Shown here: positions 9,055 through 46,203 of the stretch, in pieces
Numbering within the stretch: position 1 is the first letter of the stretch
Layout: every line of letters starts with the position of its first letter
Source of the DNA: Bryopsis sp. KO-2023
Lineage: Eukaryota > Chlorophyta > Ulvophyceae > Bryopsidales > Bryopsidaceae
NCBI GenBank assembly: GCA_030272585.1
Contig: BSYQ01000012.1
Coordinates: forward strand, 124,001 to 188,000
Length of the DNA: 64,000 bases
Direction: 5' to 3'
Program-made: the position numbers and the translations under genes
Notes under the pieces: model-generated
The model's database searches: none
Told to the model about the DNA's origin: nothing
The model's input: the letters and a program-made list of their open reading frames with translations, nothing else

Positions 9055-9135
9055 GTGGAATAAAGTTTTTCCAAACTGTTTGATACACTGAAACGAAACG
9101 TTCGCAGACAAGTCGCTCCGTTAACTCAAAGCAAA
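9054..9135 (-). repeat. 5' LTR of element A, inner fragment
   Basis: 82 bp identical to 3384-3465. Its last five bases GCAAA (9131-9135) are the target duplication made by element B and recur at 19411-19415. Confidence 0.92.
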
Positions 9136-20512: not shown

Positions 20513-23500
20513 GTTCGAGGAAGGGACCCCTGGAGCTCTGAAGGCAGAAAAACAAGTAAGTGGGGTTGGGTGGGCTGTTGTTTGTTGACTTGTTTTTGTG
20601 TGTTTGTGTTTCAGGTTCGAGGAAGGGACCCCTGGAGCTCTGAAGGCAGAAAAACAAGTAAGTGAGGGTGGGTGGGCTGTTGTTTGTTGACTTGTTTTTG
20701 TGTGTTGTGTTTCAGGTTCGAGGAAGGGACCCCTGGAGCTCTGAAGGCAGAAAAACAAGTAAGTGGGGTTGGGTGGGCTGTTGTTTGGTGACTTGTTTTT
20801 GTGTGTTGTGTTTCAGGTTCGAGGAAGGGACCCCTGGAGCTCTGAAGGCAGAAAAACAAGTAAGTGGGGTTGGGTGGGCTGTTGTTTGTTGACTTGTTTT
20901 TGTGTGTTGTGTTTCAGGTTCGAGGAAGGGACCCCTGGAGCTCCGAAGGCAGAAAAACAAGTAAGTGGGGGTGGGTGGGCTGTTGTTTGTTGACTTGTTT
21001 TTGTGTGTTGTGTTTCAGGTTCGAGGAAGGGACCCCTGGAGCTCTGAAGGCAGAAAAACAAGTAAGTGGGGTTGGGTGGGCTGTTGTTTGGTGACTTGTT
21101 TTTGTGTGTTGTGTTTCAGGTTCGAGGAAGGGACCCCTGGAGCTCCGAAGGCAGAAAAACAAGTAAGTGGGGTTGGGTGGGCTGTTGTTTGGTGACTTGT
21201 TTTTGTGTGTTGTGTTTCAGGTTCGAGGAAGGGACCCCTGGAGCTCTGAAGGCAGAAAAACAAGTAAGTGGGGTTGGGTGGGCTGTTGTTTGTTGACTTG
21301 TTTTTGTGTGTTGTGTTTCAGGTTCGAGGAAGGGACCCCTGGAGCTCTGAAGGCAGAAAAACAAGTAAGTGGGGTTGGGTGGGCTGTTGTTTGTTGACTT
21401 GTTTTTGTGTGTTGTGTTTCAGGTTCGAGGAAGGGACCCCTGGAGCTCTGAAGGCAGAAAAACAAGTAAGTGGGGGTGGGTGGGCTGTTGTTTGTTGACT
21501 TGTTTTTGTGTGGTGTTTTTCAGGTTCGAGGAAGGGACCCCTGGAGCTCCGAAGGCAGAAAAACAAGTAAGTGGGGGTGGTTGGGCTGTTGTTTGTTGAC
21601 TTGTTTTTGTGTGTTGTGTTTCAGGTTCGAGGAAGGGACCCCTGGAGCTCTGAAGGCAGAAAAACAAGTAAGTGGGGGTGGTTGGGCTGTTGTTTGGTGA
21701 CTTGTTTTTGTGTGTTGTGTTTCAGGTTCGAGGAAGGGACCCCTGGAGCTCTGAAGGCAGAAAAACAAGTAAGTGGGGGTGGGTGGGCTGTTGTTTGTTG
21801 ACTTGTTTTTGTGTGTTGTGTTTCAGGTTCAAGGAAGGGACTCCTGGAGCTCTGAAGGCAGAAAAACAAGTAAGTGGGGGTGGGTGGGCTGTTGTTTGTT
21901 GACTTGTTTTTGTGTGGTGTTTTTCAGGTTCGAGGAAGGGACCCCTGGAGCTCTGAAGGCAGAAAAACAAGTAAGTGGGGGTGGTTGGGCTGTTGTTTGT
22001 TGACTTGTTTTTGTGTGTTGTGTTTCAGGTTCGAGGAAGGGACCCCTGGAGCTCTGAAGGCAGAAAAACAAGTAAGTGGGGGTGGTTGGGCTGTTGTTTG
22101 TTGACTTGTTTTTGTGTGGTGTTTTTCAGGTTCGAGGAAGGGACCCCTGGAGCTCTGAAGGCAGAAAAACAAGTAAGTGGGGTTGGGTGGGCTGTTGTTT
22201 GTTGACTTGTTTTTGTGTGTTTGTGTTTCAGGTTCGAGGAAGGGACCCCTGGAGCTCTGAAGGCAGAAAAACAAGTAAGTGGGGTTGGGTGGGCTGTTGT
22301 TTGGTGACTTGTTTTTGTGTGTTGTGTTTCAGGTTCGAGGAAGGGACCCCTGGAGCTCTGAAGGCAGAAAAACAAGTAAGTGGGGTTGGGTGGGCTGTTG
22401 TTTGTTGACTTGTTTTTGTGTGTTGTGTTTCAGGTTCGAGGAAGGGACCCCTGGAGCTCTGAAGGCAGAAAAACAAGTAAGTGGGGTTGGGTGGGCTGTT
22501 GTTTGGTGACTTGTTTTTGTGTGTTGTGTTTCAGGTTCGAGGAAGGGACCCCTGGAGCTCTGAAGGCAGAAAAACAAGTAAGTGGGGTTGGGTGGGCTGT
22601 TGTTTGGTGACTTGTTTTTGTGTGTTGTGTTTCAGGTTCGAGGAAGGGACCCCTGGAGCTCCGAAGGCAGAAAAACAAGTAAGTGGGGTTGGGTGGGCTG
22701 TTGTTTGGTGACTTGTTTTTGTGTGTTGTGTTTCAGGTTCGAGGAAGGGACCCCTGGAGCTCTGAAGGCAGAAAAACAAGTAAGTGGGGGTGGGTGGGCT
22801 GTTGTTTGTTGACTTGTTTTTGTGTGTTTGTGTTTCAGGTTCGAGGAAGGGACCCCTGGAGCTCTGAAGGCAGAAAAACAAGTAAGTGGGGTTGGGTGGG
22901 CTGTTGTTTGGTGACTTGTTTTTGTGTGTTGTGTTTCAGGTTCGAGGAAGGGACCCCTGGAGCTCTGAAGGCAGAAAAACAAGTAAGTGGGGTTGGGTGG
23001 GCTGTTGTTTGTTGACTTGTTTTTGTGTGTTTGTGTTTCAGGTTCGAGGAAGGGACCCCTGGAGCTCCGAAGGCAGAAAAACAAGTAAGTGGGGTTGGGT
23101 GGGCTGTTGTTTGTTGACTTGTTTTTGTGTGTTTGTGTTTCAGGTTCGAGGAAGGGACCCCTGGAGCTCCGAAGGCAGAAAAACAAGTAAGTGGGGTTGG
23201 GTGGGCTGTTGTTTGGTGACTTGTTTTTGTGTGTTTGTGTTTCAGGTTCGAGGAAGGGACCCCTGGAGCTCTGAAGGCAGAAAAACAAGTAAGTGGGGGT
23301 GGGTGGGCTGTTGTTTGTTGACTTGTTTTTGTGTGTTTGTGTTTCAGGTTCGAGGAAGGGACCCCTGGAGCTCTGAAGGCAGAAAAACAAGTAAGTGGGG
23401 TTGGGTGGGCTGTTGTTTGTTGACTTGTTTTTGTGTGTTGTGTTTCAGGTTCAAGGAAGGGACTCCTGGAGCTCTGAAGGCAGAAAAACAAGTAAGTGGG

Positions 23501-24968
23501 GGTGGGTGGGCTGTTGTTTGTTGACTTGTTTTTGTGTGTTTGTGTTTAAGGCTCAAGGAAGGGACCCCTGGAGCTCCGAAGGCAGAAAAACAAGTAAGTG
23601 GGGTTGGGTGGGCTGTTGTTTGTTGACTTGTTTTTGTGTGTTTGTGTTTCAGGTTCGAGGAAGGGACCCCTGGAGCTCCGAAGGCAGAAAAACAAGTAAG
23701 TGGGGTTGGGTGGGCTGTTGTTTGGTGACTTGTTTTTGTGTGTTGTGTTTCAGATTCGAGGAAGGGACCCCTGGAGCTCTGAAGGCAGAAAAACAAGTAA
23801 GTGGGGGTGGTTGGGCTGTTGTTTGTTGACTTGTTTTTGTGTGTTGTGTTCCAGGTTCAAGGAAGGGACTCCTGGAGCTCTGAAGGCAGAAAAACAAGTA
23901 AGTGGGGTTGGGTGGGCTGTTGTTTGTTGACTTGTTTTTGTGTGTTGTGTTTCAGGTTCAAGGAAGGGACTCCTGGAGCTCTGAAGGCAGAAAAACAAGT
24001 AAGTGGGGTTGGGTGGGCTGTTGTTTGTTGACTTGTTTTTGTGTGTTTGTGTTTAAGGCTCAAGGAAGGGACCCCTGGAGCTCCGAAGGCAGAAAAACAA
24101 GTAAGTGGGGTTGGGTGGGCTGTTGTTTGGTGACTTGTTTTTGTGCGTTGTGTTTCAGGTTCGAGGAAGGGACCCCTGGAGCTCTGAAGGCAGAAAAACA
24201 AGTAAGTGGGGGTGGGTGGGCTGTTGTTTGTTGACTTGTTTTTGTGTGTTGTGTTTCAGGTTCGAGGAAGGGACCCCTGGAGCTCCGAAGGCAGAAAAAC
24301 AAGTAAGTGGGGTTGGGTGGGCTGTTGTTTGGTGACTTGTTTTTGTGTGGTGTTTTTCAGGTTCGAGGAAGGGACCCCTGGAGCTCCGAAGGCAGAAAAA
24401 CAAGTAAGTGGGGTTGGGTGGGCTGTTGTTTGGTGACTTGTTTTTGTGTGTTGTGTTTCAGGTTCGAGGAAGGGACCCCTGGAGCTCCGAAGGCAGAAAA
24501 ACAAGTAAGTGGGGTTGGGTGGGCTGTTGTTTGGTGACTTGTTTTTGTGTGTTGTGTTTCAGGTTCGAGGAAGGGACCCCTGGAGCTCTGAAGGCAGAAA
24601 AACAAGTAAGTGGGGTTGGGTGGGCTGTTGTTTGGTGACTTGTTTTTGTGTGTTGTGTTTCAGGTTCGAGGAAGGGACCCCTGGAGCTCCGAAGGCAGAA
24701 AAACAAGTAAGTGGGGTTGGGTGGGCTGTTGTTTGGTGACTTGTTTTTTGTGTGTTGTTTTTCAGGTTCGAGGGAGGGACCCCTGGAGCTCTGAAGGAAG
24801 AAAAACAAGTAAGTGGGGTTGGGTGGGCTGTTGTTTGTTGACTTGTTTTTGTGTGTTGTGTTTCAGGTTCGAGGGAGGGACCCCTGGAGCTCTGAAGGAA
24901 GAAAAACAAGTAAGTGGGGGTGGGTGGGCTGTTGTTTGTTGACTTGTTTTTGTGTGTTTGTGTTTCAG
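20513..24968 (+). repeat. Array 1: about 44 tandem 101-bp exon-intron-like units
   Basis: Each unit is a 43-nt block (GTTCGAGGAAGGGACCCCTG to AGAAAAACAA) bounded by TTTCAG before and GTAAGTGGGG after, then a T/G-rich 58-nt block that looks like a minimal intron. Variants are spread through the array: CTCTGA or CTCCGA in the exon, TTGACTT or GGTGACTT in the intron, and a TGTGGTGTTTTT or TGTGTTTGTGTTT acceptor tract. Two units have TTTAAG (about 23547 and 24054) instead of TTTCAG. With a 101-bp period no long ORF crosses it. Whether it is spliced cannot be read from DNA alone. Confidence 0.9.
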
Positions 24969-26570
24969 GTTCGAGGAAGGGACTTCAGGAGCTGAGTGGT
25001 TGGCGGCGGTGGTGGCGGCGGCATGGGGGGGTGGATATGGGTTCTAAAGTGTATGTACTTGATAAGCTTGGTTTGTAGGCTTTGGTGATTTGGTATGAAT
25101 TGGATTAGATGGGCCTGTGATTACTGGGAGATTCTGAATGAAGTTGACTGTTCTGCAGTACTTGATTGCGGAGGAGGAGGCGACGGTTGCTGGTGGTGGT
25201 GTGGCTCAACAGGATCGTGTGGACTATTATTGAGTACAAAGAAAGTGGGTTAATCTGAGAGAGAAGACTATTCGTTTGACCAGGCATCAGGCTATATATC
25301 TTCAGATTTGTGTGGAAGTTTTCCATTGTTGCGTGTATATATTGCTCCAGGGTAAGTTGCCTGGTTCCTGGATTTTGAGTTGAACCTGTGATGATCAAAA
25401 ATAAATTTGAAACGGAGGGTTTAGCCAAGTCTTTTGTCCCATGAGGATCTGTCGTTTGGATCATCCTTAAATTGTTGGAGGAGTCTTAGTTGAGCAGCTC
25501 CCCAGTGACAAATGTAATAATTTTGCTGTTTGAAATTGTTTTCTGTGAGTATGTGGAGTCTCATAACCTGGTTGGACAGCCGAGTCCCCAGAAACCCGGC
25601 TTGTAGGAGTCAGCCATTCAACCCACCATGCATGATGCGATGTTCAATTTATTTTGGAAAAAAAAGGAAAGTAAGTGTTTTTCACTTTGTTGTCCTTTTG
25701 ATATTCTTGCATGCTCATTCTGGATGATTCGGACCGGCCAGCTTCAGATCCTGTAATAATCAGATAATGTTCAGAAAAGCGTTCCTTGATTCGACAACCC
25801 TTCTATCTCGGCTCTAACAACCTCTATGTCACACTCAGACAACAACTTCTGAAAAAACAGTTTCTTGCAAGGAACGCAGCATTTCCGTTTGATGTGTGTG
25901 TGCCGTTAATTTTGATTTTAATTTCAGACTTAGATATCACAAATCACAATCCAAAACTGCATGCAGTTGTGGATACCACAAGTATTCTGGATACCAGTGT
26001 TTTTTTAGAGAAAAGGAACAACACTTTTTTTCATTTTAACAGCGCGTGCTGGTGGACAAAAATTATGTGGCCAGCTCAGGAGAATTCGTTCTCGAGATGA
26101 ATGGATTGAGCAGGCCTGTGAGAGTTCAGGTTCATACAGTTTTGTCTTGTCTGAATAGATTTCCATCTGTTTTGTTCAAATTGCCAAAACCGAGGAGCTG
26201 CAATTGTTCCTTCGGCTTTGTTGATTTGGATGTCACTGTGGGAAGCTGGACATCTTTTTAGGGAAATTGGGAACACCCCATGCAGCCTGGTCATTGTGCA
26301 AAAGAGTGATATGGGTGTGTCTTGTTGTGCCAGAATGATCTGTGGGATTTTAAACCCTTGCACGTCAAATTTCCCTCCAAAAGTTTTCGTGAACACCACA
26401 ACGAAGGTTTCTGCAAAGAAAAAAAATGGGAGGTGTTTTTTTTCTCCCTAATCTTCGCAATAATATTTTCATGTAATTGTAAAGATTTATTATTATTTCG
26501 ATCCTGTTGTTTTGTTTGGGTCAATTCTGGATCAAAAAGAAGAAAAAGAAAGGCTGTTTACAGTAACTTT
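24969..26570 (+). other. Tail of array locus 1 (candidate terminal exon and beyond)
   Basis: The tail begins after a TTTCAG with the same GTTCGAGGAAGGGAC as the microexon, then diverges. In one frame it continues FEEGTSGAEWLAAVVAAAWG and stops near 25048. A glycine/alanine-coding GGC-rich stretch lies at 25004-25030. AATAAA occurs at 25400. Further on, an ATG in good context (25628) opens a 43-nt exon with a GTAAGT donor at 25671. An acceptor at 25774 would join it in phase to a frame running to 26100 (about 119 residues, no family recognised). The tail is repeated almost identically at 39615 and 43443. Confidence 0.5.
25628..26100 (+). CDS. Possible small two-exon gene in the tail, copy 1
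   Basis: Exon 1 (25628-25670) starts CACCATGC and ends before GTAAGTG. Exon 2 starts after TTCAG at 25775. The join keeps phase and gives about 119 residues: KRSLIRQPFYLGSNN, then LRQQLLKKQFLARNAAF and a hydrophobic VCVPLILILI stretch. Other splice choices near 25990-26041 would give a different end. There is no recognised domain. Identical copies lie 14,646 bp and 18,474 bp downstream. The evidence is only splice-site phase and open frames, so it may be chance. Confidence 0.25.
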
Positions 26571-27073
26571 GTCTGACACATCACAACGACTGAAACAGTA
26601 ATCTCACTCTTTCTCACACTCTTTTGTTCCTCTCTGTCTGACTCTCTGATTTCCGAGAAAATTTGGGGAAAGGGGGGTTTCGACTAATAACCTTGTCCCC
26701 GACTTTTTAGCACCGTTAATCTTTCCGCCTCCGTTTAAAGTTCACGCTGGTATCTTGCTGCCACGTCCCACATGGTCACTCTTTTTTCCGTCACCCCTTT
26801 TCTGGCACTGACTCATCCAGAAACACAACCGTCTGTCCCACCGTTTCACGGCAAGGGAATTCGTTTACGTCAACGACCGCGTCAGCCGTCGACCGGTTAC
26901 CACAAGGCTCGAGTTTGAGGAGCACACAAAAAGAAAGGTCCTCGTGAAAACTCCGATCGTCGCTCCGCATTTCGTTTCTGCATGTACGAAGGATGGACCT
27001 CTGGAGGAAAGAAAAACAAGTAAGTGGGGTTGGGTGGGCTGTTGTTTGGTGACTTGTGTGTGTTGTGTTTCAG
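26571..27073 (+). other. Leader of array locus 2
   Basis: Homologous to 20012-20512 but without its 4-bp insertion and with one extra T. The open frame reads HRFTAREFVYVNDRVSRR, then KRKVLVKTPIVAPHFVSAC, and ends at AAAAACAA before GTAAGTGGGG. Compared with locus 1, changes fall at both silent and replacement positions, so coding constraint is not proven. Confidence 0.5.
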
Positions 27074-30000
27074 GTTCGAGGAAGGGACCCCTGGAGCTCC
27101 GAAGGCAGAAAAACAAGTAAGTGGGGTTGGGTGGGCTGTTGTTTGGTGACTTGTTTTTGTGTGTTTGTGTTTCAGGTTCGAGGAAGGGACCCCTGGAGCT
27201 CCGAAGGCAGAAAAACAAGTAAGTGGGGTTGGGTGGGCTGTTGTTTGGTGACTTGTTTTTGTGTGTTGTGTTTCATGTTCGAGGAAGGGACCCCTGGAGC
27301 TCCGAAGGCAGAAAAACAAGTAAGTGGGGTTGGGTGGGCTGTTGTTTGGTGACTTGTTTTTTGTGTGTTGTGTTTCAGGTTCGAGGGAGGGACCCCTGGA
27401 GCTCTGAAGGAAGAAAAACAAGTAAGTGGGGTTGGGTGGGCTGTTGTTTGGTGACTTGTTTTTTGTGTGTTGTGTTTCAGGTTCGAGGGAGGGACCCCTG
27501 GAGCTCTGAAGGAAGAAAAACAAGTAAGTGGGGTTGGGTGGGCTGTTGTTTGTTGACTTGTTTTTTGTGTGTTGTGTTTCAGGTTCGAGGGAGGGACCCC
27601 TGGAGCTCTGAAGGAAGAAAAACAAGTAAGTGGGGTTGGGTGGGCTGTTGTTTGGTGACTTGTTTTTTGTGTGTTGTGTTTCAGGTTCGAGGGAGGGACC
27701 CCTGGAGCTCTGAAGGAAGAAAAACAAGTAAGTGGGGTTGGGTGGGCTGTTGTTTGGTGACTTGTTTTTTGTGTGTTGTGTTTCAGGTTCGAGGGAGGGA
27801 CCCCTGGAGCTCTGAAGGAAGGAAAACAAGTAAGTGGGGTTGGGTGGGCTGTTGTTTGGTGACTTGTTTTTTGTGTGTTGTGTTTCAGGTTCGAGAAAGG
27901 GACCCCTGGAGCTCTGAAGGAAGAAAAACAAGTAAGTGGGGTTGGGTGGGCTGTTGTTTGGTGACTTGTTTTTTGTGTGTTGTGTTTCAGGTTCGAGGAA
28001 GGGACCCCTGGAGCTCTGAAGGAAGAAAAACAAGTAAGTGGGGTTGGGTGGGCTGTTGTTTGGTGACTTGTTTTTTGTGTGTTGTGTTTCAGGTTCGAGG
28101 GAGGGACCCCTGGAGCTCTGAAGGAAGAAAAACAAGTAAGTGGGGTTGGGTGGGCTGTTGTTTGTTGACTTGTTTTTTGTGTGTTGTGTTTCAGGTTCGA
28201 GGGAGGGACCCCTGGAGCTCTGAAGGAAGGAAAACAAGTAAGTGGGGTTGGGTGGGCTGTTGTTTGTTGACTTGTTTTTTGTGTGTTGTGTTTCAGGTTC
28301 GAGGAAGGGACCCCTGGAGCTCTGAAGGAAGGAAAACAAGTAAGTGGGGTTGGGTGGGCTGTTGTTTGGTGACTTGTTTTTTGTGTGTTGTGTTTCAGGT
28401 TCGAGGGAGGGACCCCTGGAGCTCTGAAGGAAGAAAAACAAGTAAGTGGGGTTGGGTGGGCTCCTGTTTGTTGACTTGTTTTTTGTGTGTTGTGTTTCAG
28501 GTTCGAGGAAGGGACCCCTGGAGCTCTGAAGGAAGAAAAACAAGTAAGTGGGGTTGGGTGGGCTGTTGTTTGTTGACTTGTTTTTTGTGTGTTGTGTTTC
28601 AGGTTCGAGGGAGGGACCCCTGGAGCTCTGAAGGAAGGAAAACAAGTAAGTGGGGTTGGGTGGGCTGTTGTTTGGTGACTTGTTTTTTGTGTGTTGTGTT
28701 TCAGGTTCGAGGGAGGGACCCCTGGAGCTCTGAAGGAAGAAAAACAAGTAAGTGGGGTTGGGTGGGCTGTTGTTTGTTGACTTGTTTTTTGTGTGTTGTG
28801 TTTCAGGTTCGAGGGAGGGACCCCTGGAGCTCTGAAGGAAGGAAAACAAGTAAGTGGGGTTGGGTGGGCTGTTGTTTGTTGACTTGTTTTTTGTGTGTTG
28901 TGTTTCAGGCTCGAGGAAGGGACCCCTGGAGCTCTGAAGGAAGGAAAACAAGTAAGTGGGGTTGGGTGGGCTGTTGTTTGGTGACTTGTTTTTTGTGTGT
29001 TGTGTTTCAGGTTCGAGGAAGGGACCCCTGGAGCTCTGAAGGAAGAAAAACAAGTAAGTGGGGTTGGGTGGGCTGTTGTTTGTTGACTTGTTTTTTGTGT
29101 GGTGTTTTTCAGGTTCGAGGAAGGGACCCCTGGAGCTCTGAAGGAAGAAAAACAAGTAAGTGGGGTTGGGTGGGCTGTTGTTTGTTGACTTGTTTTTTGT
29201 GTGTTGTGTTTCAGGCTCGAGGAAGGGACCCCTGGAGCTCTGAAGGAAGGAAAACAAGTAAGTGGGGTTGGGTGGGCTGTTGTTTGTTGACTTGTTTTTT
29301 GTGTGTTGTGTTTCAGGTTCGAGGAAGGGACCCCTGGAGCTCTGAAGGAAGAAAAACAAGTAAGTGGGGTTGGGTGGGCTGTTGTTTGTTGACTTGTTTT
29401 TTGTGTGTTGTGTTTCATGTTCGAGGAAGGGACCCCTGGAGCTCTGAAGGAAGAAAAACAAGTAAGTGGGGTTGGGTGGGCTGTTGTTTGGTGACTTGTT
29501 TTTTGTGTGTTGTGTTTCAGGTTCGAGGGAGGGACCCCTGGAGCTCTGAAGGAAGAAAAACAAGTAAGTGGGGTTGGGTGGGCTGTTGTTTGTTGACTTG
29601 TTTTTTGTGTGTTGTGTTTCAGGTTCGAGGGAGGGACCCCTGGAGCTCTGAAGGAAGAAAAACAAGTAAGTGGGGTTGGGTGGGCTGTTGTTTGGTGACT
29701 TGTTTTTTGTGTGTTGTGTTTCAGGTTCGAGGGAGGGACCCCTGGAGCTCTGAAGGAAGAAAAACAAGTAAGTGGGGTTGGGTGGGCTGTTGTTTGGTGA
29801 CTTGTTTTTTGTGTGTTGTGTTTCAGGTTCGAGGGAGGGACCCCTGGAGCTCTGAAGGAAGGAAAACAAGTAAGTGGGGTTGGGTGGGCTGTTGTTTGGT
29901 GACTTGTTTTTTGTGTGTTGTGTTTCAGGTTCGAGAAAGGGACCCCTGGAGCTCTGAAGGAAGAAAAACAAGTAAGTGGGGTTGGGTGGGCTGTTGTTTG

Positions 30001-33000
30001 GTGACTTGTTTTTTGTGTGTTGTGTTTCAGGTTCGAGGAAGGGACCCCTGGAGCTCTGAAGGAAGAAAAACAAGTAAGTGGGGTTGGGTGGGCTGTTGTT
30101 TGGTGACTTGTTTTTTGTGTGTTGTGTTTCAGGTTCGAGGGAGGGACCCCTGGAGCTCTGAAGGAAGAAAAACAAGTAAGTGGGGTTGGGTGGGCTGTTG
30201 TTTGTTGACTTGTTTTTTGTGTGTTGTGTTTCAGGTTCGAGGGAGGGACCCCTGGAGCTCTGAAGGAAGGAAAACAAGTAAGTGGGGTTGGGTGGGCTGT
30301 TGTTTGTTGACTTGTTTTTTGTGTGTTGTGTTTCAGGTTCGAGGAAGGGACCCCTGGAGCTCTGAAGGAAGGAAAACAAGTAAGTGGGGTTGGGTGGGCT
30401 GTTGTTTGGTGACTTGTTTTTTGTGTGTTGTGTTTCAGGTTCGAGGGAGGGACCCCTGGAGCTCTGAAGGAAGAAAAACAAGTAAGTGGGGTTGGGTGGG
30501 CTCCTGTTTGTTGACTTGTTTTTTGTGTGTTGTGTTTCAGGTTCGAGGAAGGGACCCCTGGAGCTCTGAAGGAAGAAAAACAAGTAAGTGGGGTTGGGTG
30601 GGCTGTTGTTTGTTGACTTGTTTTTTGTGTGGTGTTTTTCAGGTTCGAGGAAGGGACCCCTGGAGCTCTGAAGGAAGAAAAACAAGTAAGTGGGGTTGGG
30701 TGGGCTGTTGTTTGTTGACTTGTTTTTTGTGTGTTGTGTTTCAGGCTCGAGGAAGGGACCCCTGGAGCTCTGAAGGAAGGAAAACAAGTAAGTGGGGTTG
30801 GGTGGGCTGTTGTTTGGTGACTTGTTTTTTGTGTGTTGTGTTTCAGGTTCGAGAAAGGGACCCCTGGAGCTCTGAAGGAAGAAAAACAAGTAAGTGGGGT
30901 TGGGTGGGCTGTTGTTTGTTGACTTGTTTTTTGTGTGGTGTTTTTCAGGTTTGAGGAAGGGACCCCTGGAGCTCTGAAGGAAGAAAAACAAGTAAGTGGG
31001 GTTGGGTGGGCTGTTGTTTGTTGACTTGTTTTTTGTGTGTTGTGTTTCAGGTTCGAGGAAGGGACCCCTGGAGCTCTGAAGGAAGAAAAACAAGTAAGTG
31101 GGGTTGGGTGGGCTGTTGTTTGTTGACTTGTTTTTTGTGTGGTGTTTTTCAGGTTCGAGGAAGGGACCCCTGGAGCTCTGAAGGAAGAAAAACAAGTAAG
31201 TGGGGTTGGGTGGGCTGTTGTTTGTTGACTTGTTTTTTGTGTGTTGTGTTTCAGGCTCGAGGAAGGGACCCCTGGAGCTCTGAAGGAAGAAAAACAAGTA
31301 AGTGGGGTTGGGTGGGCTGTTGTTTGTTGACTTGTTTTTGTGTGGTGTTTTTCAGGTTCGAGGAAGGGACCCCTGGAGCTCTGAAGGAAGAAAAACAAGT
31401 AAGTGGGGTTGGGTGGGCTGTTGTTTGGTGACTTGTTTTTTGTGTGTTGTGTTTCAGGTTCGAGGGAGGGACCCCTGGAGCTCTGAAGGAAGAAAAACAA
31501 GTAAGTGGGGTTGGGTGGGCTGTTGTTTGTTGACTTGTTTTTTGTGTGTTGTGTTTCAGGTTCGAGGGAGGGACCCCTGGAGCTCTGAAGGAAGAAAAAC
31601 AAGTAAGTGGGGTTGGGTGGGCTGTTGTTTGGTGACTTGTTTTTTGTGTGGTGTTTTTCAGGTTCGAGGAAGGGACCCCTGGAGCTCTGAAGGAAGAAAA
31701 ACAAGTAAGTGGGGTTGGGTGGGCTGTTGTTTGTTGACTTGTTTTTTGTGTGTTGTGTTTCAGGCTCGAGGAAGGGACCCCTGGAGCTCTGAAGGAAGGA
31801 AAACAAGTAAGTGGGGTTGGGTGGGCTGTTGTTTGGTGACTTGTTTTTTGTGTGTTGTGTTTCAGGTTCGAGAAAGGGACCCCTGGAGCTCTGAAGGAAG
31901 AAAAACAAGTAAGTGGGGTTGGGTGGGCTGTTGTTTGTTGACTTGTTTTTTGTGTGGTGTTTTTCAGGCTCGAGGAAGGGACCCCTGGAGCTCTGAAGGA
32001 AGGAAAACAAGTAAGTGGGGTTGGGTGGGCTGTTGTTTGTTGACTTGTTTTTTGTGTGTTGTGTTTCAGGCTCGAGGAAGGGACCCCTGGAGCTCTGAAG
32101 GAAGGAAAACAAGTAAGTGGGGTTGGGTGGGCTGTTGTTTGGTGACTTGTTTTTTGTGTGTTGTGTTTCAGGTTCGAGAAAGGGACCCCTGGAGCTCTGA
32201 AGGAAGAAAAACAAGTAAGTGGGGTTGGGTGGGCTGTTGTTTGTTGACTTGTTTTTTGTGTGGTGTTTTTCAGGTTTGAGGAAGGGACCCCTGGAGCTCT
32301 GAAGGAAGGAAAACAAGTAAGTGGGGTTGGGTGGGCTGTTGTTTGTTGACTTGTTTTTTGTGTGTTGTGTTTCAGGTTCGAGGAAGGGACCCCTGGAGCT
32401 CTGAAGGAAGAAAAACAAGTAAGTGGGGTTGGGTGGGCTGTTGTTTGTTGACTTGTTTTTTGTGTGTTGTGTTTCAGGTTCGAGGGAGGGACCCCTGGAG
32501 CTCTGAAGGAAGGAAAACAAGTAAGTGGGGTTGGGTGGGCTGTTGTTTGTTGACTTGTTTTTTGTGTGTTGTGTTTCAGGCTCGAGGAAGGGACCCCTGG
32601 AGCTCTGAAGGAAGGAAAACAAGTAAGTGGGGTTGGGTGGGCTGTTGTTTGGTGACTTGTTTTTTGTGTGTTGTGTTTCAGGTTCGAGGAAGGGACCCCT
32701 GGAGCTCTGAAGGAAGAAAAACAAGTAAGTGGGGTTGGGTGGGCTGTTGTTTGTTGACTTGTTTTTTGTGTGGTGTTTTTCAGGTTCGAGGAAGGGACCC
32801 CTGGAGCTCTGAAGGAAGAAAAACAAGTAAGTGGGGTTGGGTGGGCTGTTGTTTGTTGACTTGTTTTTTGTGTGTTGTGTTTCAGGCTCGAGGAAGGGAC
32901 CCCTGGAGCTCTGAAGGAAGGAAAACAAGTAAGTGGGGTTGGGTGGGCTGTTGTTTGTTGACTTGTTTTTTGTGTGTTGTGTTTCAGGTTCGAGGAAGGG

Positions 33001-36000: not shown

Positions 36001-39000
36001 GGTGGGCTGTTGTTTGTTGACTTGTTTTTTGTGTGTTGTGTTTCAGGTTCGAGGAAGGGACCCCTGGAGCTCTGAAGGAAGAAAAACAAGTAAGTGGGGT
36101 TGGGTGGGCTGTTGTTTGTTGACTTGTTTTTTGTGTGGTGTTTTTCAGGTTCGAGGAAGGGACCCCTGGAGCTCTGAAGGAAGAAAAACAAGTAAGTGGG
36201 GTTGGGTGGGCTGTTGTTTGTTGACTTGTTTTTTGTGTGTTGTGTTTCAGGCTCGAGGAAGGGACCCCTGGAGCTCTGAAGGAAGGAAAACAAGTAAGTG
36301 GGGTTGGGTGGGCTGTTGTTTGTTGACTTGTTTTTTGTGTGGTGTTTTTCAGGTTCGAGGAAGGGACCCCTGGAGCTCTGAAGGAAGAAAAACAAGTAAG
36401 TGGGGTTGGGTGGGCTGTTGTTTGTTGACTTGTTTTTGTGTGGTGTTTTTCAGGTTCGAGGAAGGGACCCCTGGAGCTCTGAAGGAAGGAAAACAAGTAA
36501 GTGGGGTTGGGTGGGCTGTTGTTTGTTGACTTGTTTTTGTGTGGTGTTTTTCAGGTTCGAGGAAGGGACCCCTGGAGCTCTGAAGGAAGGAAAACAAGTA
36601 AGTGGGGTTGGGTGGGCTGTTGTTTGTTGACTTGTTTTTTGTGTGTTGTGTTTCAGGTTCGAGGAAGGGACCCCTGGAGCTCTGAAGGAAGAAAAACAAG
36701 TAAGTGGGGTTGGGTGGGCTGTTGTTTGTTGACTTGTTTTTGTGTGGTGTTTTTCAGGTTCGAGGAAGGGACCCCTGGAGCTCTGAAGGAAGAAAAACAA
36801 GTAAGTGGGGTTGGGTGGGCTGTTGTTTGGTGACTTGTTTTTTGTGTGGTGTTTTTCAGGTTCGAGGAAGGGACCCCTGGAGCTCTGAAGGAAGAAAAAC
36901 AAGTAAGTGGGGTTGGGTGGGCTGTTGTTTGTTGACTTGTTTTTTGTGTGTTGTGTTTCAGGCTCGAGGAAGGGACCCCTGGAGCTCTGAAGGAAGGAAA
37001 ACAAGTAAGTGGGGTTGGGTGGGCTGTTGTTTGGTGACTTGTTTTTTGTGTGTTGTGTTTCAGGCTCGAGGAAGGGACCCCTGGAGCTCTGAAGGAAGGA
37101 AAACAAGTAAGTGGGGTTGGGTGGGCTGTTGTTTGTTGACTTGTTTTTTGTGTGGTGTTTTTCAGGTTCGAGGAAGGGACCCCTGGAGCTCTGAAGGAAG
37201 AAAAACAAGTAAGTGGGGTTGGGTGGGCTGTTGTTTGTTGACTTGTTTTTGTGTGGTGTTTTTCAGGTTCGAGGAAGGGACCCCTGGAGCTCTGAAGGAA
37301 GGAAAACAAGTAAGTGGGGTTGGGTGGGCTGTTGTTTGTTGACTTGTTTTTTGTGTGGTGTTTATCAGGTTCGAGGAAGGGACCCCTGGAGCTCTGAAGG
37401 AAGAAAAACAAGTAAGTGGGGTTGGGTGGGCTCCTGTTTGGTGACTTGTTTTTGTGTGTTGTGTTTCAGGTTCGAGGAAGGGACCCCTGGAGCTCTGAAG
37501 GAAGAAAAACAAGTAAGTGGGGTTGGGTGGGCTGTTGTTTGTTGACTTGTTTTTTGTGTGGTGTTTTTCAGGTTCGAGGAAGGGACCCCTGGAGCTCTGA
37601 AGGAAGAAAAACAAGTAAGTGGGGTTGGGTGGGCTGTTGTTTGTTGACTTGTTTTTTGTGTGTTGTGTTTCAGGCTCGAGGAAGGGACCCCTGGAGCTCT
37701 GAAGGAAGGAAAACAAGTAAGTGGGGTTGGGTGGGCTGTTGTTTGTTGACTTGTTTTTTGTGTGGTGTTTTTCAGGTTCGAGGAAGGGACCCCTGGAGCT
37801 CTGAAGGAAGAAAAACAAGTAAGTGGGGTTGGGTGGGCTGTTGTTTGTTGACTTGTTTTTGTGTGGTGTTTTTCAGGTTCGAGGAAGGGACCCCTGGAGC
37901 TCTGAAGGAAGGAAAACAAGTAAGTGGGGTTGGGTGGGCTGTTGTTTGTTGACTTGTTTTTTGTGTGTTGTGTTTCAGGCTCGAGGAAGGGACCCCTGGA
38001 GCTCTGAAGGAAGAAAAACAAGTAAGTGGGGTTGGGTGGGCTGTTGTTTGTTGACTTGTTTCTTGTGTGTTTGTGTTTCAGGTTCGAAGAAGGGCCCCCT
38101 GGAGCTCTGAAGGAAGAAAAACAAGTAAGTGGGGTTGGGTGGGCTGTTGTTTGTTGACTTGTTTTTTGTGTGTTGTGTTTCAGGTTCGAGGAAGGGACCC
38201 CTGGAGCTCTGAAGGAAGAAAAACAAGTAAGTGGGGTTGGGTGGGCTGTTGTTTGTTGACTTGTTTTTTGTGTGTTGTGTTTCAGGCTCGAGGAAGGGAC
38301 CCCTGGAGCTCTGAAGGAAGAAAAACAAGTAAGTGGGGTTGGGTGGGCTGTTGTTTGTTGACTTGTTTCTTGTGTGTTTGTGTTTCAGGTTCGAAGAAGG
38401 GCCCCCTGGAGCTCTGAAGGAAGAAAAACAAGTAAGTGGGGTTGGGTGGGCTGTTGTTTGTTGACTTGTTTTTTGTGTGTTGTGTTTCAGGTTCGAGGGA
38501 GGGACCCCTGGAGCTCTGAAGGAAGAAAAACAAGTAAGTGGGGTTGGGTGGGCTGTTGTTTGGTGACTTGTTTTTTGTGTGTTGTGTTTCAGGTTCGAGG
38601 AAGGGACCCCTGGAGCTCTGAAGGAAGAAAAACAAGTAAGTGGGGTTGGGTGGGCTGTTGTTTGTTGACTTGTTTTTTGTGTGTTGTGTTTCAGGCTCGA
38701 GGAAGGGACCCCTGGAGCTCTGAAGGAAGAAAAACAAGTAAGTGGGGTTGGGTGGGCTGTTGTTTGTTGACTTGTTTCTTGTGTGTTTGTGTTTCAGGTT
38801 CGAAGAAGGGCCCCCTGGAGCTCTGAAGGAAGAAAAACAAGTAAGTGGGGTTGGGTGGGCTGTTGTTTGTTGACTTGTTTTTTGTGTGTTGTGTTTCAGG
38901 TTCGAGGGAGGGACCCCTGGAGCTCTGAAGGAAGAAAAACAAGTAAGTGGGGTTGGGTGGGCTGTTGTTTGGTGACTTGTTTTTTGTGTGGTGTTTTTCA

Positions 39001-39614
39001 GGTTCGAGGGAGGGCCCCCTGGAGCTCTGAAGGAAGAAAAACAAGTAAGTGGGGTTGGGTGTGCTGTTGTTTGTTGACTTGTTTCTTGTGTGTTTGTGTT
39101 TCAGGTTCGAAGAAGGGCCCCCTGGAGCTCTGAAGGAAGAAAAACAAGTAAGTGGGGTTGGGTGGGCTGTTTTTTGTTGACTTGTTTTTTGTGTGGTGTT
39201 TTTCAGGTTCGAGGAAGGGACCCCTGGAGCTCTGAAGGAAGAAAAACAAGTAAGTGGGGTTGGGTGGGCTGTTGTTTGGTGACTTGTTTTTTGTGTGTTG
39301 TGTTTCAGGTTCGAGGGAGGGACCCCTGGAGCTCTGAAGGAAGAAAAACAAGTAAGTGGGGTTGGGTGGGCTGTTGTTTGGTGACTTGTTTTTTGTGTGT
39401 TGTGTTTCAGGTTCGAGGGAGGGACCCCTGGAGCTCTGAAGGAAGAAAAACAAGTAAGTGGGGTTGGGTGGGCTGTTGTTTGTTGACTTGTTTTTTGTGT
39501 GTTGTGTTTCAGGTTCGAGGGAGGGACCCCTGGAGCTCTGAAGGAAGGAAAACAAGTAAGTGGGGTTGGGTGGGCTCCTGTTTGTTGACTTGTTTTTGTG
39601 TGTTTGTGTTTCAG
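27074..39614 (+). repeat. Array 2: about 123 tandem 102-bp exon-intron-like units
   Basis: Same unit as array 1 with one more T in the intron tract, giving 43 + 59 = 102 bp. Because 102 is divisible by three and the unit lacks stops in some frames, open frames of up to about 2,600 codons run on the minus strand and about 1,240 on the plus strand, in several overlapping frames. These are consequences of periodicity. Higher-order copies exist: the rare variant GGGCTCCTGTTTG recurs at 28460, 30500 and 34171, spaced 2,040 bp (20 units) and 3,671 bp (36 units). Units with TTTCAT in place of TTTCAG occur at 27271, 29413 and 33084. Both splice-like boundaries are otherwise nearly invariant. Confidence 0.92.
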
Positions 39615-41216
39615 GTTCGAGGAAGGGACTTCAGGAGCTGAGTGGTTGGCGGCGGTGGTGGCGGCGGCATGGGGGGGTGGATATGTGTTCTAAAGTGTAT
39701 GTACTTGATAAGCTTGGTTTGTAGGCTTTGGTGATTTGGTATGAATTGGATTAGATGGGCCTGTGATTACTGGGAGATTCTGAATGAAGTTGACTGTTCT
39801 GCAGTACTTGATTGCGGAGGAGGAGGCGACGGTTGCTGGTGGTGGTGTGGCTCAACAGGATCGTGTGGACTATTATTGAGTACAAAGAAAGTGGGTTAAT
39901 CTGAGAGAGAAGACTATTCGTTTGACCAGGCATCAGGCTATATATCTTCAGATTTGTGTGGAAGTTTTCCATTGTTGCGTGTATATATTGCTCCAGGGTA
40001 AGTTGCCTGGTTCCTGGATTTTGAGTTGAACCTGTGATGATCAAAAATAAATTTGAAACGGAGGGTTTAGCCAAGTCTTTTGTCCCATGAGGATCTGTCG
40101 TTTGGATCATCCTTAAATTGTTGGAGGAGTCTTAGTTGAGCAGCTCCCCAGTGACAAATGTAATAATTTTGCTGTTTGAAATTGTTTTCTGTGAGTATGT
40201 GGAGTCTCATAACCTGGTTGGACAGCCGAGTCCCCAGAAACCCGGCTTGTAGGAGTCAGCCATTCAACCCACCATGCATGATGCGATGTTCAATTTATTT
40301 TGGAAAAAAAAGGAAAGTAAGTGTTTTTCACTTTGTTGTCCTTTTGATATTCTTGCATGCTCATTCTGGATGATTCGGACCGGCCAGCTTCAGATCCTGT
40401 AATAATCAGATAATGTTCAGAAAAGCGTTCCTTGATTCGACAACCCTTCTATCTCGGCTCTAACAACCTCTATGTCACACTCAGACAACAACTTCTGAAA
40501 AAACAGTTTCTTGCAAGGAACGCAGCATTTCCGTTTGATGTGTGTGTGCCGTTAATTTTGATTTTAATTTCAGACTTAGATATCACAAATCACAATCCAA
40601 AACTGCATGCAGTTGTGGATACCACAAGTATTCTGGATACCAGTGTTTTTTTAGAGAAAAGGAACAACACTTTTTTTCATTTTAACAGCGCGTGCTGGTG
40701 GACAAAAATTATGTGGCCAGCTCAGGAGAATTCGTTCTCGAGATGAATGGATTGAGCAGGCCTGTGAGAGTTCAGGTTCATACAGTTTTGTCTTGTCTGA
40801 ATAGATTTCCATCTGTTTTGTTCAAATTGCCAAAACCGAGGAGCTGCAATTGTTCCTTCGGCTTTGTTGATTTGGATGTCACTGTGGGAAGCTGGACATC
40901 TTTTTAGGGAAATTGGGAACACCCCATGCAGCCTGGTCATTGTGCAAAAGAGTGATATGGGTGTGTCTTGTTGTGCCAGAATGATCTGTGGGATTTTAAA
41001 CCCTTGCACGTCAAATTTCCCTCCAAAAGTTTTCGTGAACACCACAACGAAGGTTTCTGCAAAGAAAAAAAATGGGAGGTGTTTTTTTTCTCCCTAATCT
41101 TCGCAATAATATTTTCATGTAATTGTAAAGATTTATTATTATTTCGATCCTGTTGTTTTGTTTGGGTCAATTCTGGATCAAAAAGAAGAAAAAGAAAGGC
41201 TGTTTACAGTAACTTT
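39615..41216 (+). other. Tail of array locus 2
   Basis: Nearly base-for-base copy of 24969-26570. The first difference I noticed is GATATGTGTTC instead of GATATGGGTTC. It carries the same possible two-exon frame (40274-40746) and the same AATAAA. Confidence 0.7.
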
Positions 41217-41712
41217 GTCTGACACATCACAACGACTGAAACAGTAATCTCACTCTTTCTCACACTCTTTTGTTCCTCTCTGTCTGACTCTCTGATTTCC
41301 GAGAAAATTTGGGGAAAGGGGGGTTTCGACTAATAACCTTGTCCCCGACTTTTTAGCACCGTTAATCTTTCCGCCTCCGTTTAAAGTTCACGCTGGTATC
41401 TTGCTGCCACGTCCCACATGGTCACTCTTTTTTCCGTCACCCCTTTTCTGGCACTGACTCATCCAGAAACACAACCGTCTGTCCCACCGTTTCACGGCAA
41501 GGGAATTCGTTTACGTCAACGACCGCGTCAGCCGTCGACCGGTTACCACAAGGCTCGAGTTTGAGGAGCACACAAAAAGAAAGGTCCTCGTGAAAACTCC
41601 GATCGTCGCTCCGCATTTCGTTTCTGCATGTACGAAGGATGGACCTCTGGAGGAAAGAAAACAAGTGGGTGGGCTCCTGTTTGGTGACTTGTTTTTTTGT
41701 GTTGTGTTTCAG
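41217..41712 (+). other. Leader of array locus 3
   Basis: Copy of the locus 2 leader. The exon end is AGAAAACAA followed by GTGGGTGGG, one A fewer than in locus 2, so the open leader frame would enter the first microexon in another frame. Confidence 0.55.
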
Positions 41713-43442
41713 GTTCGAGGAAGGGACCCCTGGAGCTCTGAAGGAAGAAAAACAAGTAAGTGGGGTTGGGTGGGCTGTTGTTTGGTGACTTGTGTGTGTT
41801 GTGTTTCAGGTTCGAGGAAGGGACCCCTGGAGCTCTGAAGGAAGGAAAACAAGTAAGTGGGGTTGGGTGGGCTGTTGTTTGGTGACTTGTTTTTTGTGTG
41901 TTGTGTTTCAGGTTCGAGGGAGGGACCCCTGGAGCTCTGAAGGAAGGAAAACAAGTAAGTGGGGTTGGGTGGGCTGTTGTTTGGTGACTTGTTTTTGTGT
42001 GGTGTTTTTCAGGTTCGAGGAAGGGACCCCTGGAGCTCTGAAGGAAGGAAAACAAGTAAGTGGGGTTGGGTGGGCTGTTGTTTGTTGACTTGTTTTTTGT
42101 GTGTTGTGTTTCAGGTTCGAGGAAGGGACCCCTGGAGCTCTGAAGGAAGGAAAACAAGTAAGTGGGGTTGGGTGGGCTGTTGTTTGTTGACTTGTTTTTT
42201 GTGTGTTGTGTTTCAGGTTCGAGGAAGGGACCCCTGGAGCTCTGAAGGAAGGAAAACAAGTAAGTGGGGTTGGGTGGGCTGTTGTTTGTTGACTTGTTTT
42301 TTGTGTGTTGTGTTTCAGGTTCGAGGAAGGGACCCCTGGAGCTCTGAAGGAAGAAAAACAAGTAAGTGGGGTTGGGTGGGCTGTTGTTTGTTGACTTGTT
42401 TTTTGTGTGTTGTGTTTCAGGTTCGAGGAAGGGACCCCTGGAGCTCTGAAGGAAGGAAAACAAGTAAGTGGGGTTGGGTGGGCTGTTGTTTGTTGACTTG
42501 TTTTTTGTGTGTTGTGTTTCAGGTTCGAGGGAGGGACCCCTGGAGCTCTGAAGGAAGAAAAACAAGTAAGTGGGGTTGGGTGTGCTGTTGTTTGTTGACT
42601 TGTTTCTTGTGTGTTTGTGTTTCAGGTTCGAAGAAGGGCCCCCTGGAGCTCTGAAGGAAGAAAAACAAGTAAGTGGGGTTGGGTGGGCTGTTGTTTGTTG
42701 ACTTGTTTTTTGTGTGTTGTGTTTCAGGTTCGAGGGAGGGACCCCTGGAGCTCTGAAGGAAGAAAAACAAGTAAGTGGGGTTGGGTGGGCTGTTGTTTGG
42801 TGACTTGTTTTTTGTGTGGTGTTTTTCAGGTTCGAGGGAGGGACCCCTGGAGCTCTGAAGGAAGAAAAACAAGTAAGTGGGGTTGGGTGTGCTGTTGTTT
42901 GTTGACTTGTTTCTTGTGTGTTTGTGTTTCAGGTTCGAAGAAGGGCCCCCTGGAGCTCTGAAGGAAGAAAAACAAGTAAGTGGGGTTGGGTGGGCTGTTT
43001 TTTGTTGACTTGTTTTTTGTGTGGTGTTTTTCAGGTTCGAGGAAGGGACCCCTGGAGCTCTGAAGGAAGAAAAACAAGTAAGTGGGGTTGGGTGGGCTGT
43101 TGTTTGGTGACTTGTTTTTTGTGTGTTGTGTTTCAGGTTCGAGGGAGGGACCCCTGGAGCTCTGAAGGAAGAAAAACAAGTAAGTGGGGTTGGGTGGGCT
43201 GTTGTTTGGTGACTTGTTTTTTGTGTGTTGTGTTTCAGGTTCGAGGGAGGGACCCCTGGAGCTCTGAAGGAAGAAAAACAAGTAAGTGGGGTTGGGTGGG
43301 CTGTTGTTTGTTGACTTGTTTTTTGTGTGTTGTGTTTCAGGTTCGAGGGAGGGACCCCTGGAGCTCTGAAGGAAGGAAAACAAGTAAGTGGGGTTGGGTG
43401 GGCTCCTGTTTGTTGACTTGTTTTTGTGTGTTTGTGTTTCAG
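41713..43442 (+). repeat. Array 3: about 17 units of 102 bp
   Basis: Same exon-intron-like unit. Some units show the variants GAAGAAGGGCCCCCTGG and CTTGTTTCTTGTG, also found at the right end of array 2 (from 38061), so the right ends of arrays 2 and 3 are recent copies of one another. Confidence 0.9.
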
Positions 43443-45044
43443 GTTCGAGGAAGGGACTTCAGGAGCTGAGTGGTTGGCGGCGGTGGTGGCGGCGGCATGG
43501 GGGGGTGGATATGTGTTCTAAAGTGTATGTACTTGATAAGCTTGGTTTGTAGGCTTTGGTGATTTGGTATGAATTGGATTAGATGGGCCTGTGATTACTG
43601 GGAGATTCTGAATGAAGTTGACTGTTCTGCAGTACTTGATTGCGGAGGAGGAGGCGACGGTTGCTGGTGGTGGTGTGGCTCAACAGGATCGTGTGGACTA
43701 TTATTGAGTACAAAGAAAGTGGGTTAATCTGAGAGAGAAGACTATTCGTTTGACCAGGCATCAGGCTATATATCTTCAGATTTGTGTGGAAGTTTTCCAT
43801 TGTTGCGTGTATATATTGCTCCAGGGTAAGTTGCCTGGTTCCTGGATTTTGAGTTGAACCTGTGATGATCAAAAATAAATTTGAAACGGAGGGTTTAGCC
43901 AAGTCTTTTGTCCCATGAGGATCTGTCGTTTGGATCATCCTTAAATTGTTGGAGGAGTCTTAGTTGAGCAGCTCCCCAGTGACAAATGTAATAATTTTGC
44001 TGTTTGAAATTGTTTTCTGTGAGTATGTGGAGTCTCATAACCTGGTTGGACAGCCGAGTCCCCAGAAACCCGGCTTGTAGGAGTCAGCCATTCAACCCAC
44101 CATGCATGATGCGATGTTCAATTTATTTTGGAAAAAAAAGGAAAGTAAGTGTTTTTCACTTTGTTGTCCTTTTGATATTCTTGCATGCTCATTCTGGATG
44201 ATTCGGACCGGCCAGCTTCAGATCCTGTAATAATCAGATAATGTTCAGAAAAGCGTTCCTTGATTCGACAACCCTTCTATCTCGGCTCTAACAACCTCTA
44301 TGTCACACTCAGACAACAACTTCTGAAAAAACAGTTTCTTGCAAGGAACGCAGCATTTCCGTTTGATGTGTGTGTGCCGTTAATTTTGATTTTAATTTCA
44401 GACTTAGATATCACAAATCACAATCCAAAACTGCATGCAGTTGTGGATACCACAAGTATTCTGGATACCAGTGTTTTTTTAGAGAAAAGGAACAACACTT
44501 TTTTTCATTTTAACAGCGCGTGCTGGTGGACAAAAATTATGTGGCCAGCTCAGGAGAATTCGTTCTCGAGATGAATGGATTGAGCAGGCCTGTGAGAGTT
44601 CAGGTTCATACAGTTTTGTCTTGTCTGAATAGATTTCCATCTGTTTTGTTCAAATTGCCAAAACCGAGGAGCTGCAATTGTTCCTTCGGCTTTGTTGATT
44701 TGGATGTCACTGTGGGAAGCTGGACATCTTTTTAGGGAAATTGGGAACACCCCATGCAGCCTGGTCATTGTGCAAAAGAGTGATATGGGTGTGTCTTGTT
44801 GTGCCAGAATGATCTGTGGGATTTTAAACCCTTGCACGTCAAATTTCCCTCCAAAAGTTTTCGTGAACACCACAACGAAGGTTTCTGCAAAGAAAAAAAA
44901 TGGGAGGTGTTTTTTTTCTCCCTAATCTTCGCAATAATATTTTCATGTAATTGTAAAGATTTATTATTATTTCGATCCTGTTGTTTTGTTTGGGTCAATT
45001 CTGGATCAAAAAGAAGAAAAAGAAAGGCTGTTTACAGTAACTTT
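43443..45044 (+). other. Tail of array locus 3
   Basis: Third copy of the 1.6-kb tail. I read it as identical to 39615-41216 in all stretches compared, with the possible frame at 44102-44574. Confidence 0.7.
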
Positions 45045-45540
45045 GTCTGACACATCACAACGACTGAAACAGTAATCTCACTCTTTCTCACACTCTTTTG
45101 TTCCTCTCTGTCTGACTCTCTGATTTCCGAGAAAATTTGGGGAAAGGGGGGTTTCGACTAATAACCTTGTCCCCGACTTTTTAGCACCGTTAATCTTTCC
45201 GCCTCCGTTTAAAGTTCACGCTGGTATCTTGCTGCCACGTCCCACATGGTCACTCTTTTTTCCGTCACCCCTTTTCTGGCACTGACTCATCCAGAAACAC
45301 AACCGTCTGTCCCACCGTTTCACGGCAAGGGAATTCGTTTACGTCAACGACCGCGTCAGCCGTCGACCGGTTACCACAAGGCTCGAGTTTGAGGAGCACA
45401 CAAAAAGAAAGGTCCTCGTGAAAACTCCGATCGTCGCTCCGCATTTCGTTTCTGCATGTACGAAGGATGGACCTCTGGAGGAAAGAAAACAAGTGGGTGG
45501 GCTCCTGTTTGGTGACTTGTTTTTTTGTGTTGTGTTTCAG
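45045..45540 (+). other. Leader of array locus 4
   Basis: Identical by eye to the locus 3 leader, including the GTGGGT donor-like site. Confidence 0.55.
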
Positions 45541-46203
45541 GTTCGAGGAAGGGACCCCTGGAGCTCTGAAGGAAGAAAAACAAGTAAGTGGGGTTGGGTG
45601 GGCTGTTGTTTGGTGACTTGTGTGTGTTGTGTTTCAGGTTCGAGGAAGGGACCCCTGGAGCTCTGAAGGAAGAAAAACAAGTAAGTGGGGTTGGGTGGGC
45701 TGTTTTTTGGTTACTTGTTTTTTGTGTGTTGTGTTTCAGGTTCGAGGAAGGGACCCCTGGAGCTCTGAAGGAAGAAAAACAAGTAAGTGGGGTTGGGTAG
45801 GCTGTTGTTTGTTGACTTGTTTTTGTGTGTTTGTGTTTCAGGTTCGAGGAAGGGACCCATGGAGCTCTGAAGGAAGAAAAACAAGTAAGTGGGGTTGGGT
45901 GGGCTGTTGTTTGGTGACTTGTTTTCTGTGTGTTATGTTTCAGGTTCGAGGAAGGGACCCATGGAGCTCTGAAGGAAGAAAAACAAGTAAGTGGGGTTGG
46001 GCTGTTGTTTGTTGACTTGTTTTTGTGTGTTTGTGTTTCAGGTTCGAGGAAGGGACCCCTAGAGCTCTGAAGGAAGAAAAACAAGTAAGTGGGGTTGGGT
46101 GGGCTGTTGTTTGGTGACTTGTTTTTTTTGTGGTGTTTTTCAGGTTCAAGGAAAGGACCCCTGGAGACTGGAGGAAGGAAAACAAGTGAGTGGGGTGGGT
46201 GGG
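45541..46203 (+). repeat. Array 4: about 7 units, the last degenerate
   Basis: Units carry private changes (CCCATGG, CCCTAGA, a shortened intron near 46000) and the last one reads GTTCAAGGAAAGGACCCCTG then GAGACTGGAGG. It lacks the 1.6-kb tail. It ends in GTGAGTGGGG, followed by AATAAA at 46215. This is an eroded edge of the amplified block. Confidence 0.85.

Follow-up and report, generated by a model that had tools for sequence, protein, structure and literature searches.

The siphonous green alga Bryopsis sp. KO-2023 carries, in a 64-kb stretch of contig C12 (C12:124001-188000, hereafter the window; the assembly comprises 91 Mb in 28 contigs), four arrays of a cassette consisting of an exon of ∼43 nt and an intron of 58 or 59 nt. 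A full-length CCT-eta protein encoded elsewhere in the assembly matches BSKO_01168 of this alga with 100% identity over 559 amino acids. We find that these arrays are parts of gene-like loci and not a free satellite. The loci share one plan: a conserved 5′ region and leader, the cassette repeated from about two to 123 times, and a variable 3′ end. The reading we favor, on the evidence of sequence, is a multicopy gene-like family in which the end of a leader exon and the first intron were tandemly amplified and whose RNA is probably spliced.

Tandem microexons and mini-introns in the window

Scanning the window for the 43-nt exon with up to eight mismatches allowed (the greatest distance found was four) gives 190 blocks in four arrays of 44, 123, 17, and 6, which bears out the first-pass annotation of this DNA, where about 190 tandem units in four arrays had been counted. 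The same scan finds no unit on the minus strand of the window. Every block is followed by GTAAGT (190/190), a donor of the U2-type form GTRAGT. The hexamer preceding the block is TTTCAG in 183 units; the others have TTTCAT (three), TTTAAG (two), TTCCAG (one), and TATCAG (one). Among the 186 introns between adjacent blocks, 135 are 59 nt long, 42 are 58 nt, six are 60 nt, two are 54 nt, and one is 55 nt. The first introns depart from the earlier description: in three of the four arrays they measure 48–49 nt and begin with GTGGGT, and array 2 opens with a 54-nt intron whose donor is GTAAGT.

The introns also have a branch-site-like motif of the form yUnAy, a tract, and a terminal YAG, with the qualification that the tract is built of T and G rather than T and C and that the first y is T or G. 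A complete mini-intron motif (GTRAGT, 54–62 nt, TNAC at branch distance, and three pyrimidines followed by YAG) occurs 185 times on the + strand between positions 20441 and 46220 and not once on the − strand; in the 44.2 kb of the window outside the arrays, it is absent from both strands. Such a restriction to the + strand of the arrays is not what chance would produce.

The four arrays are joined by three near-identical spacers of ∼2.1 kb, made up of a 3′ region (T1) and the 5′ region of the next locus, which differ by zero to one mismatch and at most five gap columns in 2,041 aligned bases. Within array 2 there is a recent block duplication, with a lag of 3,671 bp and an exact run of 3,753 bp (first copy at 28714-32466). 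Near-identical tandem units and recent homogenization are features of satellites and minisatellites, and the arrays have both. The parts follow one another in the window as listed here, each with its strand and source.

20268..20463, + strand: leader exon and core 5′ region, copy 1 (with a 1-base deletion), leading into array 1 (alignment of 17 copies)
20464..20512, + strand: first intron of array 1, running for 49 nt from the donor GTGGGT to the acceptor TTTCAG (sequence)
20513..24909, + strand: array 1, 44 units of a 43-nt exon and a mostly 58/59-nt intron (unit scan)
24969..26520 (end approximate), + strand: 3′ region T1 after array 1, with a Gly/Trp/Cys-rich reading (alignment, genome matches)
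25051..25158, + strand: predicted intron inside T1 after array 1, from GTATGT at 25051 to TTCTGCAG at 25158 (intron ends checked)
26821..27019, + strand: leader exon and core 5′ region, copy 2, followed by GTAAGT as first donor (alignment of copies)
27074..39555, + strand: array 2, 123 units, containing the block duplication (unit scan)
39615..41150 (end approximate), + strand: T1 after array 2 (against the first copy, one mismatch and five gap columns in 2,041 bases of T1 plus 5′ region)
41467..41664, + strand: leader exon and core 5′ region, copy 3 (alignment of copies)
41713..43383, + strand: array 3, 17 units (unit scan)
43443..44980 (end approximate), + strand: T1 after array 3 (no difference from the second copy in 2,041 bases of T1 plus 5′ region)
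45295..45492, + strand: leader exon and core 5′ region, copy 4 (alignment of copies)
45541..46084, + strand: array 4, six units (unit scan)
46144..46185, + strand: degraded last unit, 42 nt, donor GTGAGT; the 3′ region behind it, T2, differs from T1 (sequence)

Read by eye, T2 resembles the 3′ region found behind the arrays of two other loci in the genome, L024 and L025.

The locus plan across the genome

The 5′ region has 18 matches in the genome, 17 of them on C12, C17, or C18, and at 16 of the 18 the fetched sequence has an array directly downstream from the conserved 5′ region and leader exon. A satellite independent of gene structure would not be so regularly preceded by a leader. The two exceptions are a partial match of 71% at C12:1662039 and a copy on C6 (L026, C6:304501-308500), which has no array and is followed ∼140 bp further on by a dispersed repeat (at least 43 matches) with a reverse-transcriptase-like appearance by eye. 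Matches to the unit itself number at least 448, and among the matches listed, arrays occur on C12, C17, and C18 only.

The number of introns per array ranges widely: two in L024, six in L025, nine in L022, 16 in L021, 24 in L011, and 124 in array 2 of the window, with the reservation that some fetched pieces cut their arrays and that the arrays of a cluster at C12 792–803k run past the fetched sequence. Three contigs terminate within or next to such arrays (at C12:1, at C17:1, and at the end of C18); the arrays may therefore interrupt the assembly, and the true copy number may be higher.

The leader evolves slowly. Over nine representative copies (36 pairs), its divergence is 4.2% (272/6,420 sites), compared with 14.5% just upstream (860/5,923), a 3.4-fold difference; further upstream it rises to 33.5% (926/2,764), where some copies are no longer alike. 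This constraint is not that of a protein: the variable sites of the leader are spread evenly over the three codon positions (8/10/9), and some copies have a frameshift or a stop in the reading. The reading in question, of 67 amino acids (KHNRL...EEKTS), is open in most copies, with a frameshift in window copy 1 and a stop in L023; a Pfam search with a limit of E = 1 gave no match, and we rejected it as a leader protein. A BRCT-like look, seen by eye only, was likewise dropped.

Conservation of the splice signals and alternative readings

We searched 13 fetched loci with an intron finder that anchors donors on ACAAG, so that divergent exon ends could escape it. It returned 527 matches, 518 of them with both intron ends; three of the nine incomplete ones (in L014) lie outside the arrays. 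The donors of the 518 introns are GTAAGT (439), GTGAGT (67), GTGGGT (nine), GCGAGT (two), and GTAAGC (one), and the acceptors are TTTCAG (501), TTTTAG (five), and others (12). In the diverged loci, where exon length drifts between 42 and 44 nt, GTGAGT, the alternative consensus form, predominates among the donors. The A of the branch-site-like TNAC is unchanged in 500 out of 500 full units (156 distinct), while the free position of the motif has changed in 15 units, the T in two, and the C in three.

Changes are correspondingly rare at the signal positions. The mean number of minor-allele units per column is 1.1 in 10 core columns and 15.6 in the 91 others (P = 0.003, permutation test), and the depletion is also seen with distinct units (P = 0.005). 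Among nine locus consensuses, there are no substitution events in the 10 core columns and at least 30 in the 92 non-core columns (P = 0.045, assuming that events fall uniformly). In the 54 pairs of arrays with at least one diverged locus, the exon differs by 10.3% on average, the non-signal part of the intron by 12.0%, and eight core signal positions by 0.5%. The exon is the slower of the two in just 31 of these 54 pairs, which gives no sign of an exon-specific constraint. Taken together, these data are suggestive of selection on the splice signals and fall short of proof.

Several observations weigh against splicing, or against reading too much into this conservation. The arrays are young and homogenized, so identity among units is weak evidence. 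Counted by distinct alleles, the depletion is not significant (P = 0.13), and for the five strictest signal positions the three values are 0.036, 0.042, and 0.28, the last again by distinct alleles and not significant; moreover, the 10 core columns were of our own choosing and omit donor +3 and acceptor −3, which vary. The equal substitution rates at splice-site and other positions that the first-pass annotation had named as grounds for refuting its reading are not what we see, although the inequality is moderate: It emerges from the counts of units and of locus consensuses and not from those of alleles. Three of the 190 window units have the broken acceptor TTTCAT. Of the 16 loci with a leader, nine have GTGGGT as the first donor, in an intron of 48–49 nt, five have GTGAGT, one GTAAGT, and one GCGAGT, so that the weakest intron is often the first. 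Ordinary genes of this genome do allow GT-AG introns to be inferred, a point in favor of splicing. Compared with this small sample, the array introns (54–60 nt) are short: Those of chaperonin genes measure about 101 nt or more (a simple score made 30 calls at 31 junctions, of which one, at 39 nt, is spurious and some are doubtful), and those of three glycine-rich-protein genes on C13 measure 80–113 nt. The predicted joined-exon junction (...ACAA joined to GTTCGAGG) has no copy in the genome at up to three mismatches; a processed copy, which could have proved splicing, is not seen. Finally, protein database searches with spliced and unspliced readings gave no match among targets of about 158–504 and about 51–163 amino acids.

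The main rival to a spliced family, which we consider unlikely but by some way the strongest of the alternatives, is a satellite of genic origin: Part of an old gene, comprising an exon and an intron, would have been amplified in the manner of a minisatellite, with the splice signals as passengers, and the arrays would be silent or else transcribed with no useful splicing. The exact run in array 2 and the near-identical spacers fit this well, as do the short introns, the missing junction copy, the confinement of the listed arrays to three contigs, and the borderline depletion by the two measures nearer to independent events (distinct alleles and locus consensuses). It accounts less well for a slow-evolving leader and a 5′ region that accompany the array at 16 of 18 matches, or for diverged loci in which the donor has mostly moved to another consensus form and the branch-site A never changes. 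Nor would it predict the far paralog described below, which keeps a similar architecture with largely different exons.

That the arrays encode a repetitive protein, whether read from the 43-nt exons after splicing or from the 102-bp period (34 codons) without it, is very improbable, and we rejected coding through the array on frame drift and short open reading frames (ORFs). Long open stretches do exist: Unspliced arrays have frames of, for example, 2616 amino acids on the − strand and 1243 on the + strand, spliced L023 has an open stretch of 559 codons, and the 3′ end T1 has a Gly-rich reading. However, a period of 102 bp is divisible by three, so any stop-free frame stays open indefinitely, and since the period is 101 or 102 bp and the exon 42–44 nt depending on the locus, no reading frame is kept. 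ORFs beginning at ATG after splicing are only 33–137 amino acids long in the 17 array groups examined, although some are truncated where a fetched piece stops, and the longest in L023 is 137. The even spread of changes in the leader and the empty database searches, within the lengths searched, agree with this. The huge isoform diversity proposed at first pass is accordingly not sustained as a statement about proteins, the exon not being a multiple of three. In the absence of a conserved protein and a kept frame, a noncoding or rapidly decayed spliced RNA is to be expected, if the loci are transcribed. The joined exons are not notable in folding (z = −1.2 against shuffles), and the window contains no Rfam family at the gathering threshold, which does not suggest a host gene with a small RNA in each intron.

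Least probable of all is a mobile origin, in which a retroelement would have acquired the array repeat and the 5′ region would be that element's promoter or terminal repeat, as the C6 copy beside a dispersed repeat might be taken to indicate. Most other long copies of that dispersed repeat start ∼140 bp past the end of the 5′-region homology, so the copy lies beside the repeat and is neither its part nor its promoter. The 5′ region is also not dispersed (17 of its 18 matches are on three contigs; terminal repeats were not searched for), and we rejected a retroelement origin.

Origin of the cassette and relation to known systems

The 3′ region T1 of the main copies is homologous to the last exons of a family of glycine-rich-protein genes on C13, from which the main array loci apparently took their 3′ end. 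Three members were fetched.

C13:1233501-1235300: L069, glycine-rich gene family
C13:2673401-2675200: L070, glycine-rich gene family
C13:2553701-2555500: L071, glycine-rich gene family

These genes read as a signal-peptide-like start, a 21-nt microexon, and a long polyglycine; their first three exons are 70, 21, and 140/161 nt long, and the introns of 80–113 nt given above flank the microexon. The signal-peptide-like coding start was not found on reading the array loci. Upstream of the glycine-rich gene in L071, at about 1–650 (C13:2553701-2554350), there is a palindromic-looking stretch rich in CCCCGCAC / GTGCGGGG.

A far paralog at C12:847–850k has a homologous 3′ region (70%–80% identity) and matches the 5′ core over 46 bp at 78%. 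Two of its microexons, of 34 and 36 nt, have an intron on either side; the introns are 67 and 68 nt long, with GTGAGT donors and TTGCAG or GTGTAG acceptors. Its introns align to the array intron better than most shuffles (0 and 25 of 1000 do as well), and so does the 36-nt exon to the array exon (3/1000); the alignment of the 34-nt exon is not significant (95/1000). The pattern of short exons and short introns was thus retained through changes in their sequence and length. The number of units is low here (few) and in L024 (two mini-introns), all within one species.

The array exon is also homologous to the leader exon, whose final 35 nt can be aligned with it, the array exon having 7–8 extra bases; none of 1000 shuffles aligns as well for either of the two copies tested. 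Together with the branch-like TNAC, the GTGAGT donors of the diverged loci, and the flanking leader and gene-like 3′ ends, this upholds the earlier description of the arrays as an amplified exon-intron pair. The simplest history would be a tandem duplication of the leader-exon end with the whole first intron, giving rise to the cassette, which unequal exchange, repeated, and block duplication would then have multiplied.

Under this model of a spliced family, the loci would be transcribed from the 5′ region on the + strand, and the spliceosome would remove most mini-introns, leaving a long RNA of joined 43-nt exons that is noncoding or prone to nonsense-mediated decay. Splicing would maintain the splice signals, and exon number would be free to vary. 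A bolder version, which we put forward tentatively and hold to be rather doubtful, is that single transcripts join from dozens to more than 100 near-identical 43-nt microexons into a repetitive noncoding RNA that exists only in spliced form and is as long as the number of exon copies dictates; the array would then act as a splicing amplifier, with selection on splicing and not on the product.

Outside these loci, the window holds a large retroelement at 11669-18750 on the − strand, in which a single open frame of 1375 amino acids combines reverse transcriptase, RNase H, and integrase with a chromodomain at the C terminus; an adjoining second long frame has a C terminus that looks zinc-knuckle-like by eye. 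A second retroelement-like set of open frames, at 3691-9120 on the − strand, matches an integrase core and an aspartyl protease. An open frame of 447 amino acids at 61417-62760, also on the − strand, has only a subthreshold nucleotidyltransferase match (Pfam Polbeta, E = 0.11).

Two known kinds of locus recall the arrays in part. In the micro-exon genes of Schistosoma, very short exons are strung between introns within one gene, as they are here; those micro-exons are mostly multiples of three, differ from one another, and code for secreted proteins, whereas the Bryopsis exons are near-identical, 42–44 nt long, and do not preserve a frame. Host genes of small nucleolar RNAs (snoRNAs) of the SNORD116/SNHG14 type consist of tandem noncoding exons whose long introns carry a snoRNA. 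They share with the predicted Bryopsis transcripts the tandem exon-intron repeats of a noncoding unit and differ from them in their introns, those of Bryopsis being 58/59 nt long and, as far as the Rfam result for the window goes, without a small RNA.

The closest parallels are cases of intron gain by tandem duplication. Such an event has been described for one intron of a potato RdRp gene, and in the vertebrate ATP2A1 and fission-yeast cases a duplicated intron-exon structure gave rise to a new intron (PMC4974935). As in those cases, a duplication that copies the branch site, tract, acceptor, and splicing enhancers would make a new intron and a new exon. The passages of that source on this mode of gain concern one new intron or a handful of duplicates (PMC4974935), whereas Bryopsis has up to 123 units per locus, at many loci and with no frame kept, and its parental state is one that we infer. 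Tandem duplicated mutually exclusive exons also arise head to tail, but they are coding, with one used (PMC9741552); the Bryopsis exons number in the dozens, do not preserve a frame, and are each flanked by strong sites. In the titles and abstract openings of the literature searched, which did not include the Bryopsis nuclear genome paper, no such array is described. The kind of event, tandem exon-intron duplication, is therefore known; what is new is its extent, 123 units and many loci.

If the arrays are spliced, they suggest that intron gain by tandem duplication can reach more than 100 introns per gene, and they are an extreme natural test of how the spliceosome pairs sites, since nearby sites are identical and both exon and intron are very short, and loci with two, six, about 16, 44, and 123 units would allow exon-number processivity, skipping, and recursive splicing to be measured. 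Should the RNA truly be spliced, the family would represent an extreme case of exon and intron multiplication.

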